A stretch of DNA of 64,000 bases. It comes from Spirilliplanes yamanashiensis (lineage in GTDB: Bacteria; Actinomycetota; Actinomycetes; Mycobacteriales; Micromonosporaceae). The notes beneath the pieces were generated by a model. The model did not search any database and was not told where the DNA came from. It was given only the letters and a program-made list of their open reading frames with translations. The stretch is taken from positions 62,001 to 126,000 of the forward strand of contig NZ_BOOY01000039.1 in the NCBI RefSeq assembly GCF_016863475.1, given 5' to 3'. Below are positions 50,211 through 53,463 of the stretch, piece by piece (position 1 is the stretch's first letter; each line of letters opens with the position of its first letter). Position numbers and translations under genes: made by a program.

Positions 50211-50558
50211 TCAGGCGGTGGCCGGCACGGTGCCGGCCACCGCGAGCAGGGCGGACAGCTGCGTCATGGCCTGCGGGCGGATCCGGTAGTACGCCCAGGT
50301 GGCGCGGCGCTCGACGTCGACCAGCCCGGCCTCTCGCAGCACCCGCAGGTGGTGCGAGATCGTCGGCCCGGAGACGTCGAACGCGTCGGTCAGGTCGCAC
50401 ACGCAGACCTCGTCGGTGGACGCGATGAGCGACAGCAGCCGCAGCCGCACCGGGTCGCCGAGCGCCTTGAACATCGGGGCCAGCTGCCCGGCGGCCTCCG
50501 GCGTCAGCGCCTGGACCGACAGCGGGGGACAGCACGCGCTCGGAGCAAACTTTGACAT
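50211..50558 (-). CDS. arsR: ArsR family arsenic-responsive repressor
   Basis: 115 residues, winged helix with FKALGDPVRLRLLSLIASTD, then the metalloid-binding CVCDLTDAF and the recognition helix VSGPTISHHLRVLREAGLVD. Cys52/Cys54 lie in helix alpha-3 and a Cys9-Cys10 pair sits near the N-terminus. That combination recalls the Corynebacterium ArsR site, which uses an N-terminal Cys pair plus one alpha-3 Cys. Divergent from the ArsO-like gene across a 77-bp region with an inverted repeat, so it should repress both directions until arsenite binds. Confidence 0.92.
   Translation of the reverse strand: MSKFAPSACCPPLSVQALTPEAAGQLAPMFKALGDPVRLRLLSLIASTDEVCVCDLTDAFDVSGPTISHHLRVLREAGLVDVERRATWAYYRIRPQAMTQLSALLAVAGTVPATA
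50218..50242. terminator. Perfect 12-bp inverted repeat between converging ABC permease and arsR
   Basis: Arms GGTGGCCGGCAC and GTGCCGGCCACC separated by one base. It lies 15 bp after the permease stop and inside the last codons of arsR. It is well placed as a bidirectional terminator. Confidence 0.65.
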
Positions 50559-50575
50559 GCGTCTAGCTTGACGCT

Positions 50576-50624
50576 CATCTAGGTATCGTGCAACTCTCGT
50601 CTCGTACCTAGATGACTGTCTAGC
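50576..50624. promoter_or_regulatory. ArsR operator: inverted repeat in the divergent ars promoter
   Basis: CATCTAGGTA (50576-50585) and TACCTAGATG (50615-50624) are exact 10-bp inverted repeats between the arsR and monooxygenase starts. Further CTAG-bearing words lie just outside (GCGTCTAGC, GTCTAGC). AT-rich relative to the region. Fits an ArsR-binding site. Confidence 0.7.
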
Positions 50625-50635
50625 TAAGGGGTCCC

Positions 50636-52267
50636 ATGAGCGAGAACACCGCCGCCGGTCCGTGCTGCGGCACCGCCCAGGCGGCCGAGCGCGCCGGCGC
50701 CTGCTGCGACCCGCAGGCGAGGGCCGACGCCGTCGCCGAGGGCGCGAGCTGCTGCGGACCGGCGGACGCCACGGCCCAGCCGGCCGGCGGCACCGCCACC
50801 CGCCCGCACCCCGTCGTGGTGATCGGCGCCGGGCCCGTCGGCCTGGCCGCCGCCGCGCACCTGCACGAGCGGGGCCTGCCGTTCGTCGTGCTGGAGGCCG
50901 GCGACGCCGCCGGCGCGTCGGTGCGGCAGTGGGGTCACGTGGCCCTCTTCAGCCCGTGGCGCTACAACATCGACGCCGCCGCCCGGCGGCTGCTCGACGC
51001 CGCCGGCTGGGCCGCCCCCGACGACGAGGCCCTGCCCACCGGCGCCGAGCTGGTCGAGCAGTACCTCCAGCCGCTGGCGAAGCTGCCCGCCATCGCGCCG
51101 CACCTGCGCCTGGGAGCCCGCGTGGTGGCCATGAGCCGCGCCGGGGCCGACCGGGTGCGCACCGCCGGCCGCGCCGACCTGCCGTTCGTCGTCCGCCTGG
51201 CCGACGGCACCGAGCTGCTCGCCGCCGCCGTCGTCGACGCGTCCGGCACCTGGCGCACGCCCAGCCCGCTCGGCGCCGACGGGCTGCCCGCCCACGGCGA
51301 GGCGGACGCCGCCGGCCTCGTCGAGCACGCCCTGCCCGACGTCCTCGGCGCCGCCCGCGACGCGCACGCCGGCCGGCACACCGTCGTCGTCGGCTCGGGA
51401 CACTCCGCCGCCAACACCCTGCTGGACCTGGCCCGCCTCGCGGAGACCGCGCCCGGCACCCGGATCACCTGGGCGGTGCGCGGCGGCTCCGTGCAGCGCG
51501 CCTTCGGCGGGGAGGGCGCCGACGAGCTGCCCGCCCGCGGCGCGCTCGGCAGCGGCCTGCGGGCGCTCGTCGAGACCGGCCGGGTCACCCTGGTGCAGGG
51601 CTTCGGCGTGCACACCGTCCGCCGCACCGGCGGCGGCGTCGAACTGGCCGCCGCCGACGGGCGCACCCTGACCGCCGACCGCGTCGTGGCCGCCACCGGC
51701 TTCCGCCCGGACCACGGCATCGCCACCGAGCTCCGGCTGGACCTCGACCCCGTCCTCGGCTGCACCCGCACCCTGGCCGGCGTCATCGACCCCAACGAGC
51801 ACTCCTGCGGCACCGTGCCCCCGCACGGCCACCGCGAGCTGAGCCACCCCGAGCCGCACTACTACGCCGTCGGCATGAAGTCCTACGGGCGGGCGCCCAC
51901 GTTCCTCATGGCGACCGGCTACGAGCAGGTCCGGTCCGTCGCCGCGGCGCTGGCCGGCGACCTCGCCGCCGCCGACGACGTCCAGCTCGACCTGCCCGAG
52001 ACCGGGGTGTGCAGCGCCACCCTGGGCGCGGAGAACACCGCCCGCGAGCTCGCCGCCCGCTTCCGGGTGACCCCCGACGTCCCGGTCCGGCTGGCGGCCG
52101 CCACGGTCGCGCTGCTGCCGGCCGCGGCGAGCACCGGCGACGCGGTCCGCGCCGCCGCCGAGCAGATCGGCCTCGACCCCGAGACCGCCCTGCGGATGGC
52201 CGAGGCGCCCTCCGTCACGGGGCTGATCAGCCTCACCCCGGCGGCGGGTGGCGGCTGCTGCTCGTGA
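50636..52267 (+). CDS. ArsO-like FAD/NAD(P) flavoprotein monooxygenase with Cys-pair extensions
   Basis: 543 residues. FAD-binding motif VVVIGAGPVGLAAAAHL near residue 60, then WGHVALFSPWRYNID, the second dinucleotide motif VVVGSGHSAANTLLDL and the VVAATGFRPDHG loop, as in flavin monooxygenases of arsenic islands. The N-terminus carries three Cys pairs (10-11, 23-24, 39-40) ahead of the FAD domain. The protein ends GGGCCS with a fourth pair. These could bind arsenite or another soft metal(loid). About 120 residues follow the core; an LxxETGVCSATLG segment holds a further Cys. ArsR operator upstream; MFS gene overlaps downstream. Confidence 0.85.
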   Translation: MSENTAAGPCCGTAQAAERAGACCDPQARADAVAEGASCCGPADATAQPAGGTATRPHPVVVIGAGPVGLAAAAHLHERGLPFVVLEAGDAAGASVRQWGHVALFSPWRYNIDAAARRLLDAAGWAAPDDEALPTGAELVEQYLQPLAKLPAIAPHLRLGARVVAMSRAGADRVRTAGRADLPFVVRLADGTELLAAAVVDASGTWRTPSPLGADGLPAHGEADAAGLVEHALPDVLGAARDAHAGRHTVVVGSGHSAANTLLDLARLAETAPGTRITWAVRGGSVQRAFGGEGADELPARGALGSGLRALVETGRVTLVQGFGVHTVRRTGGGVELAAADGRTLTADRVVAATGFRPDHGIATELRLDLDPVLGCTRTLAGVIDPNEHSCGTVPPHGHRELSHPEPHYYAVGMKSYGRAPTFLMATGYEQVRSVAAALAGDLAAADDVQLDLPETGVCSATLGAENTARELAARFRVTPDVPVRLAAATVALLPAAASTGDAVRAAAEQIGLDPETALRMAEAPSVTGLISLTPAAGGGCCS

Positions 52268-53463
52268 GCCCGCCCGGCGCCGCGCCGGCCGGTGCGCGCA
52301 CCGGCCCGCGCGGCGCCGCGGTCGTGGCCGCGCTGGCGGTCACCCAGACCGTCGGCTACGGTACCCTGCACTACGCCTTCGCCGTCCTGCTCGTCCCGGT
52401 CGCCGCCGACCTCGGCGCGGGCACCACCGCCGTCACCGGCGCCTACACGGCCGGCGTCCTCGCCGGCGCGGCCGTCGCGGTGCCGGTCGGCCGGTGGCTC
52501 GACCGGCACGGCGGGCGCGCCCTCATGACCGCCGGATCGGGCGCCGGGGCCGCGCTGCTGGCCGCCTGGTCGCAGGTCGGCAGCCTGCCGCAGCTCTACC
52601 TGGTGCAGCTCGGCATCGGCGTCGCCGCCGCGGCCAGCCTCTACGAGGCCGCGTTCGCCGTCGTCGTCGGCCTGACGGGCGCCGACCGGCGCGCCCGGGC
52701 GATCCTCGCCGTCACCGTGGTGGCCGGGTTCGCCGGCCCCGTGTTCCTGCCGCTCACCGGCCGGCTGGTCGACGCCCACGGCTGGCGCACCGCGCTGCTC
52801 GTCCTCGCCGCCGTCCAGGCGGCGACCGTGCCGCTGCACGCCCTGGCGGTGCGCCGGCCCGACCGCCGCCCCGGGCCGGCCGCCCTGCCCGCGCCGCCGC
52901 GCGCCGTGCGCACCGACCGCGCGTTCCGGCTGCTCGCGCTGGGGTTCACCGCGCACACCGCCGCGACCGGCGCCGTGGCCGTCCACCTCGTCGCCGCGCT
53001 GGTCGCCTGGGGACACCCGCCCGCCTTCGCCGCCACGGTCGCCGGGCTGCTCGGCGTGCTGTCCGTCGCGGGCCGGCTCGTCACCACCGCGCTGGGGCGC
53101 CGCGGCCGCACCGCCGCCGTCACCGCGGCCGTCTTCGCCGGGCAGGCCGTCGCCGCCGCGCTGCTGCCCGTCGCCGGGACCACCACCGGCGGTGCGATCG
53201 CCGCTGTCGCCGGCTTCGGGCTGGGCTTCGGCGTGGCCACCGTCGCCCGGCCCGTGCTGCTCGCCGAGCGCTACGACCCGCGCCACTACGCCACCCTCGC
53301 CGGGCTGCTCGTCGTACCCGTGACCCTGGCCCGGGCCGCGGGCCCGCTCGCCGCCGCCGCCCTGACCGACGCGACCGGCCACCACCTGCCGATGTTCGCC
53401 GCCGTCGCGGCACTGTGCGCGGTGGCCGCCGCCGCCCTGGCGGCGGCCCGGGAGGCAAGCTGA
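52264..53463 (+). CDS. MFS transporter of the ars operon
   Basis: 399 residues, twelve membrane helices, GTG overlapping the preceding stop (GTGA). The loop between helices 2 and 3 shows the MFS motif (VGRWLDRHGGRALM). It resembles MFS proteins found in actinobacterial and alpha-proteobacterial arsenic loci (ArsJ/ArsK-like in role), taking the place of ArsB or Acr3, which are absent here. It would export arsenite, an organo-arsenical or the product of the flavoprotein; substrate is inferred. Confidence 0.85.
   Translation: MSPPGAAPAGARTGPRGAAVVAALAVTQTVGYGTLHYAFAVLLVPVAADLGAGTTAVTGAYTAGVLAGAAVAVPVGRWLDRHGGRALMTAGSGAGAALLAAWSQVGSLPQLYLVQLGIGVAAAASLYEAAFAVVVGLTGADRRARAILAVTVVAGFAGPVFLPLTGRLVDAHGWRTALLVLAAVQAATVPLHALAVRRPDRRPGPAALPAPPRAVRTDRAFRLLALGFTAHTAATGAVAVHLVAALVAWGHPPAFAATVAGLLGVLSVAGRLVTTALGRRGRTAAVTAAVFAGQAVAAALLPVAGTTTGGAIAAVAGFGLGFGVATVARPVLLAERYDPRHYATLAGLLVVPVTLARAAGPLAAAALTDATGHHLPMFAAVAALCAVAAAALAAAREAS

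Follow-up and report, generated by a model that had tools for sequence, protein, structure and literature searches.

A candidate ArsR-controlled arsenical oxidation and export module with cysteine-pair arms in Spirilliplanes yamanashiensis

Introduction

A stretch of 64,000 nucleotides from the actinomycete Spirilliplanes yamanashiensis (contig NZ_BOOY01000039.1, positions 62,001 to 126,000; hereafter the window) carries three adjacent genes that encode an ArsR repressor, a flavoprotein with pairs of adjacent cysteines (CC) at both of its ends, and a transporter of the major facilitator superfamily (MFS). The question raised by this locus is whether the trio constitutes an arsenic resistance module and, if so, what its enzyme and its pump may do. 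An earlier note on this DNA had proposed such a module, with an ArsO-like flavoprotein whose Cys arms could capture arsenicals, and a possible oxidise-and-export pathway. The reading favoured here, with somewhat better than even confidence, is that the trio provides ArsR-controlled oxidation of a trivalent arsenical followed by export through the MFS pump. The gene order, the cysteines of the regulator, the arsenic neighbourhood, the two genomic copies and the conservation of the CC tails and of Cys391 and Cys459 are directly supported by the analysis.

A second copy of the trio and the arsenic genes of the host

The window is part of contig C39 of a 6.5 Mb genome that is 99.96% complete in 59 contigs. 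Within the trio, arsR is divergent from the flavoprotein and MFS genes, and the GTG start of the MFS gene overlaps the TGA stop of the flavoprotein gene. The same three genes are found again in this genome at C43:52492-56079, where the flavoprotein has 588 residues and is 83% identical to that of the window over residues 34-543 of the latter. Beyond the MFS gene of this second trio lie a fusion of ArsR-ArsC type, more stretches that resemble ArsC (which bring the ArsC matches to four) and a channel resembling the major intrinsic proteins (MIP); the island also includes a thioredoxin reductase, named by eye.

None of the extra ars neighbours of the C43 island was found in the window, where tblastn at 1e-4 gave no match to the references for ArsC (four), Acr3, ArsH, ArsJ, ArsN, the MIP channel and the permease. 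One methyltransferase within the window scores 49.2 bits against the ArsM model, below the cut-off of 263. Across the host genome, Acr3 and ArsB were not found (E 0.001), no ArsH match was obtained, and nothing scored above the ArsM cut-off (best 79.5 bits versus 263) or that of ArsO. The earlier statement that the window lacks ArsB, Acr3, ArsC and ArsM is thus in keeping with these searches, in which ArsM is represented by methyltransferases below the cut-off only. One ArsP_1-family permease scores above its cut-off and is located elsewhere in the genome.

Arsenic genes beside related flavoproteins

The surroundings of related flavoproteins were compared at 80 loci (numbered with the prefix L), which are the best of 545 confirmed relatives from a scan of genome contigs; flanks extended up to 8 kb, and 67 of the 80 loci cover over 15 kb in total. 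Of the 80 loci, 76 contain ArsR or a further ars gene, and 56 an ars gene other than ArsR. Both counts exclude the row for ArsO (23/80), which may take in other flavoproteins and is therefore unsafe; with that row they would be 77/80 and 62/80. More specifically, ArsR was found near 73 of the relatives, ArsC near 52, MFS genes near 42 (directly downstream in 30), Acr3 near 27, MIP channels near 18, ArsN-like genes near 17, genes like thioredoxin reductase near 11, PadR near 6, ArsA near 5, ArsB near 4 and ArsH near 2, where the ArsC count rests on one reference, the references for ArsC, ArsN and MIP lie below curated cut-offs, and that for thioredoxin reductase was named by eye. Four unrelated control genes from the window gave 1, 0, 0 and 0 matches at the same 80 loci. 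Together with the cysteines of ArsR and the paralogous ars island, these neighbours back the earlier designation of the trio as an arsenic module. In a sample of 200 genomes from the order of the host, 60 have a relative of the flavoprotein at E 1e-60.

The regulators that accompany the family are of several kinds. In the nearest ArsR open reading frame (ORF), sought up to 3.2 kb away, the CC is N-terminal at 43 of the 80 loci (one of which also has a C-terminal CC) and exclusively C-terminal at 19, while the remainder comprises seven ORFs with no CC, one with CxC only, two that were unparsed and eight loci where none was found. These Cys types resemble different metalloid sites described in the accessible part of PMC11868830. 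The pairing of different sensor types with one flavoprotein family argues for arsenicals in general and does not single out an exact substrate.

Triads of regulator, flavoprotein and MFS gene are also borne by plasmids. Those of Hydrogenophaga, Ensifer and Nitrobacter lie near genes annotated as arsenate reductase (azurin), taken here as arsenite oxidase. The triad of Neotabrizicola (Paracoccaceae) stands beside ArsJ, and the sole vicinal pair of its ArsR, Cys91-92, lies near the C-terminal end; in this it resembles SpArsR, which, as far as the accessible text of PMC11868830 states, responds to methylarsenite and not to arsenite. L135 and L136 are among the loci with a regulator-flavoprotein-MFS triad, and a transporter of L135 is recorded simply as a permease.

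Two departures from this arrangement were seen. The 10 kb mobilizable plasmid SAP008A of Staphylococcus sp. 693-2 (L133), which comes from poultry litter, has genes for ArsR and the flavoprotein but no annotated MFS; given the use of organoarsenicals in feed, this plasmid would be a natural test case. In relatives from Roseomonas/Pseudoroseomonas (L017, L071, L077) the position just upstream of the flavoprotein is occupied not by ArsR but by a regulator of the PadR type, which in L017 contains a CC.

A flavoprotein family distinct from ArsO

Dinucleotide-binding motifs for flavin adenine dinucleotide (FAD) and NAD(P)H are present in the flavoprotein (GAGPVG at 64-69 and GSGHSA at 253-258) and are largely invariant in an alignment of 42 family sequences, comprising the window protein, its paralogue and 40 relatives. 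ArsO is also an FAD/NAD(P)H flavoprotein of ars islands. Membership of the window enzyme in that family is rejected because of its score, the lack of a fingerprint and the co-occurrence of the two proteins. Against the ArsO model (NF040505) it reaches 55.8 bits, where the cut-off is 425 and the true ArsO of Streptomyces californicus scores 553. The motif FxGxxxHxxx[YFW], the fingerprint of flavin monooxygenases (FMOs), occurs in none of the 42 family sequences and in both of two canonical ArsO proteins. Plasmids of Streptomyces californicus and Streptomyces sp. FR1 carry both ArsO and a member of the window flavoprotein family, each as a gene of its own, at distances of about 4 and 5 kb. A BLASTP comparison with true ArsO yields 30% identity over 227 columns. 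On these sequence criteria the flavoprotein belongs to a family distinct from ArsO, and the earlier label of ArsO-like does not hold as a family assignment.

The AlphaFold2 (AF2) model of the flavoprotein has a mean predicted local distance difference test (pLDDT) score of 84.5. Foldseek places the YpdA/Bdr bacillithiol disulfide reductases first, with template modelling scores of 0.80-0.83 when normalised to the target and 0.50-0.52 when normalised to the query; these are followed, at near E-values, by SsDesB, ferredoxin-NADP+- and thioredoxin-reductase-like proteins and FMOs, which fall within the best 15 matches. YpdA/Bdr (7a76) is the nearest solved fold, yet its identity to the flavoprotein is 18-19%, and the score on the YpdA/Bdr model TIGR04018 is 40.3 bits, not reaching the cut-off of 339.9. 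A sequence search revealed no close solved relative.

Cysteine arms and invariant cysteines

Cysteines occupy positions 10, 11, 23, 24, 39, 40, 376, 391, 459, 541 and 542 of the flavoprotein, and the four pairs listed in the earlier note (10-11, 23-24, 39-40 and 541-542) are exactly placed; Cys376, Cys391 and Cys459 are additional to that note. The arms that carry these pairs are probably disordered, as judged from the model, which has pLDDT below 50 at residues 1-15, 17-24, 34-53, 457-463 and 533-543. Because Cys459 lies within the low-confidence segment 457-463, the model does not fix its place relative to the flavin.

The distribution of pairs was tallied in 74 of the 80 loci, L028, L031, L036, L039, L070 and L090 being left out where the frame, the motif or a contig end failed. 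The tail after PETGVC contains at least one CC in 72 of these 74 relatives (one in 45, two in 18, three in 8 and four in 1; none in 2), whereas among 882 control ORFs, which were called mechanically and some of which are surely spurious, 32 have a CC within their final 60 residues. The starts of the relatives were mostly set at the most upstream ATG, making some N-terminal arms over-long, and the N-terminal tally covered the 70 residues that precede the FAD motif. In this segment a CC is found in 22/74 and three CC in 1/74, and three CC in the first 60 residues are found in 0/882 controls. Over the whole N-terminal arm the window protein has three pairs, and the C43 paralogue has four in addition to its terminal pair; few members of the family have as many as three N-terminal pairs. 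These two proteins share 71% identity over the first 45 residues and 89% over the core, yet all six Cys of the first 45 residues are kept. The Cys arms are thus real, as claimed earlier, exceed what chance would give, and are a family-wide trait in the form of CC tails.

Binding of trivalent arsenicals by the arms is plausible because the family is linked to arsenic and retains vicinal cysteines at its flexible termini. By title and the start of the abstract, the literature yielded nothing on Cys pairs in such an enzyme; subscription papers are missing from this survey, which is no proof of novelty.

The tails differ in kind among relatives. Proteobacterial tails (e.g. L069, L082, L099, L130) share a CCGGPAP...ACC...AK..GKSGCGC-like pattern that is quite unlike the actinobacterial tails. 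The helical C-terminal mini-domain of the window enzyme appears to be specific to a subclade, with similar tails seen by eye in L009, L021, L022, L023, L027, L034 and L101; tails like this mini-domain were recognised by eye in 5 of the 74 usable relatives.

The regulator and its putative operator

The window ArsR has cysteines at 9, 10, 52 and 54; Cys9, Cys10 and Cys54 had been noted before, and Cys52 is additional. Its closest solved relative is the ArsR of 6J0E (CgArsR; E 1e-17), whose N-terminal vicinal pair, Cys15-16, aligns with Cys9-Cys10. The third ligand of CgArsR, Cys55, falls in an alignment gap, and Cys52 and Cys54 of the window protein are a few residues off. The perfect inverted repeat that lies between the divergent genes (Table 1) is likely the ArsR operator, and the close similarity of the surrounding region to that of the C43 copy argues for such a role of positions 50559-50635. 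The C43 copy has, between its ArsR operator region and the flavoprotein, a 49-codon ORF with four Cys (FCDACAQVCTAEC) at L009:7924-8073 (G000:C43), for which the intergenic region of the window is too small.

Other ArsR genes of the genome are located on contigs C19, C14 and C28. The one on C19 was rejected as part of the regulon, since it lies near rpsA-like and polA-like genes (named by eye) and is without the N-terminal CC.

The MFS pump

The best NCBIfam model for the window MFS protein is the arsenite efflux MFS family ArsK (NF033733), with 141.4-141.6 bits, and the paralogue scores 153.2 bits on it, both below the cut-off of 400. Among four matches to this model in the host genome, the only two above 100 bits are those of the two trio copies. 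Two Ensifer relatives of the trio have MFS proteins named ArsK, and the ArsK so named in Ensifer is 31% identical to the window protein. The earlier statement that the only transporter is MFS applies to the trio but not to the window, where an NhaA-like antiporter and an ABC pair (both named by eye) are encoded close to the trio.

The single Cys of the window MFS protein is Cys385. When eight MFS proteins were aligned, none of the columns proved to be Cys throughout; a single Cys column is common to the window protein and its paralogue and another to three proteobacterial proteins, and the protein of L137 is Cys-free. A thiol hand-off from arm to pump thus finds no support, as no Cys is common to the eight.

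Table 1. Features of the trio and its intergenic region (window positions)
Feature	Position	Strand	Remarks
arsR	50211..50558	-	115-aa ArsR/SmtB repressor, Cys9-Cys10 and Cys52-x-Cys54; NF033788 98.6 bits, cut-off 55
Divergent promoter/operator region	50559..50635	.	Near-same sequence upstream of paralogous arsR on C43; putative operator role
Left arm of perfect 11-bp inverted repeat, TCATCTAGGTA	50575..50585	+	19-nt spacer; putative ArsR operator
Right arm of the same repeat, TACCTAGATGA	50605..50615	+	Putative ArsR operator
Flavoprotein of 543 aa (FAD/NAD(P)H), proposed ArsV-like oxidase of trivalent arsenicals	50636..52267	+	Pyr_redox_3, Pyr_redox_2
N-terminal arm, residues 1-53, CC at 10-11, 23-24, 39-40	50636..50794	+	Block pLDDT 35-50; three pairs kept in C43 paralogue
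Invariant Cys391, HSCGTV motif	51806..51808	+	Invariant in 42-sequence alignment
Invariant Cys459, PETGVC motif	52010..52012	+	Invariant in 42-sequence alignment; low-confidence model segment 457-463
Helical C-terminal mini-domain, residues ~464-533	52025..52234	+	AF2 helices; block pLDDT 88-97 (471-520), 65 and 76 at edges
Terminal CC pair 541-542	52256..52261	+	Low-confidence tip 533-543
MFS exporter, 399 aa, ArsK-like, proposed ArsW-like pump	52264..53463	+	MFS_1 87.1 bits

Discussion

In Paracoccus sp. SY a three-gene operon is reportedly named arsRVW, and its enzyme ArsV is reported to be called a flavin-linked monooxygenase. In this strain arsV oxidises methylarsenite and arsW extrudes methylarsenate, according to the accessible part of PMC10080717. 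The window has the same architecture, with a regulator, a flavoprotein and an MFS pump in one small cluster, a likeness that is one of architecture and description; in addition, the Paracoccaceae plasmid described above bears the same triad as the window family. The window module differs from ArsV/ArsW in the three Cys pairs of its N-terminal arm, in the helical domain at the C-terminal end of the enzyme, in the divergent orientation of arsR and in the Cys set of the ArsR protein. Oxidation and export, as suggested earlier, is thus the most likely function and probably right in outline, but because the architecture matches that of the published ArsV/ArsW pathway (Chen et al. 2021) it is not a new one. 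By its description in the accessible part of PMC5270249, AioE of Agrobacterium tumefaciens GW4 is a TrkA-family oxidoreductase with an NAD-binding domain that belongs to an arsenic island and is needed for arsenite resistance; unlike the window enzyme, it lies downstream of acr3-1 and is a proposed electron carrier.

In the sequence of events envisaged for the trio, arsenite or another trivalent metalloid would bind the cysteines of ArsR and so free the divergent promoter. The flavoprotein would then use NAD(P)H and FAD to oxidise a trivalent arsenical to a less toxic pentavalent form, the likeliest substrate being methylarsenite or a related organoarsenical, or possibly arsenite or antimonite. 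By analogy with ArsV/ArsW, the MFS pump encoded by the overlapping gene would export the oxidised product. More speculatively, the flexible arms may help to capture the thiophilic trivalent substrate locally and deliver it to the invariant Cys391 and Cys459. A stronger form of this last idea, which we hold to be doubtful, is that of a new arsenical-oxidase mechanism in which a YpdA-like flavoprotein without the FMO fingerprint oxidises thiol-bound arsenic, its arms acting as metallochaperones that feed Cys391 and Cys459, with no hydroperoxyflavin attack on a free substrate.

Several observations weigh against oxidation and export by the trio. Judged by its Cys set, an N-terminal CC together with CxC, the window ArsR is of the arsenite type and not of the two-Cys methylarsenite type. 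Given the lack of an FMO fingerprint and a nearest fold that is a YpdA/Bdr disulfide reductase, a monooxygenase reaction is not assured. The MFS gene was undetected in 38 of the 80 loci, and four (L023, L031, L040 and L070) gave neither an ArsR nor a safe ars match with tblastn; in L031 and L040, however, an ArsR-like ORF is listed by a profile search, and L023, L031 and L070 are truncated by contig ends. The loci are best matches and therefore biased to close relatives, not a random sample, and given the breadth of the ArsR/SmtB family, an ArsR neighbour by itself is weak evidence. Finally, the presence of the ArsP_1-family permease means that the trio MFS proteins are not the sole candidate arsenical exporters of the host.

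Some of these observations would suit a YpdA/Bdr-type disulfide reductase, in which the CC arms would serve as a thiol buffer or a sponge for arsenite, with the flavin maintaining the arms, or a low-molecular thiol, in the reduced state, while trivalent arsenic itself would leave through the MFS protein, as it does through ArsK. The best Foldseek matches, the missing fingerprint, the two invariant Cys, the ArsK model as best match of the pump and the thioredoxin-reductase-like genes near 11 of the 80 relatives are all in its favour, yet the window core is without CxxC (its Cys being 376, 391 and 459), the YpdA model falls short of its cut-off, and the arms are so variable in the number and position of their pairs that one can hardly envisage a fixed dithiol relay; we regard this function as rather unlikely. 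Less probable still would be an oxidase of inorganic As(III) or Sb(III), and not of organoarsenicals, coupled to export of arsenate or antimonate. Such a substrate would agree with the arsenite-type cysteines of the window ArsR, and with no ArsM above cut-off the genome gives no sign of its own methylarsenite, MAs(III), production; on the other hand, the ArsC-like genes beside the paralogue would reduce arsenate back, and the gene near 17 of the 80 relatives whose best likeness is to ArsN1, an arsinothricin-resistance acetyltransferase (reference 126.3 bits, below the cut-off of 170), points to organoarsenicals. It is very improbable that a redox or multidrug trio of an ordinary kind, with no link to arsenic, has come to lie near ars genes by chance: the nearest genes in the window, for an ABC exporter, a peroxidase-like protein and an AraC-type regulator (by eye), are indeed not ars genes, but the paralogue sits inside an ars island and the great majority of relatives have ArsR or ars genes beside them, more than half having one beyond ArsR.

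Oxidation of a trivalent arsenical followed by MFS export therefore remains the favoured reading, and the module is probably a variant of a pathway type that has already been published. The analysis separates a widespread arsenic flavoprotein family from the easily confused ArsO and provides clear residues for tests, namely the two invariant Cys and the variable CC arms. As no Acr3 or ArsB was found in the S. yamanashiensis genome, the visible candidates for the movement of arsenicals are both MFS copies, the one ArsP_1-family permease and the MIP-like channel in the C43 island, and a knock-out would therefore be informative.

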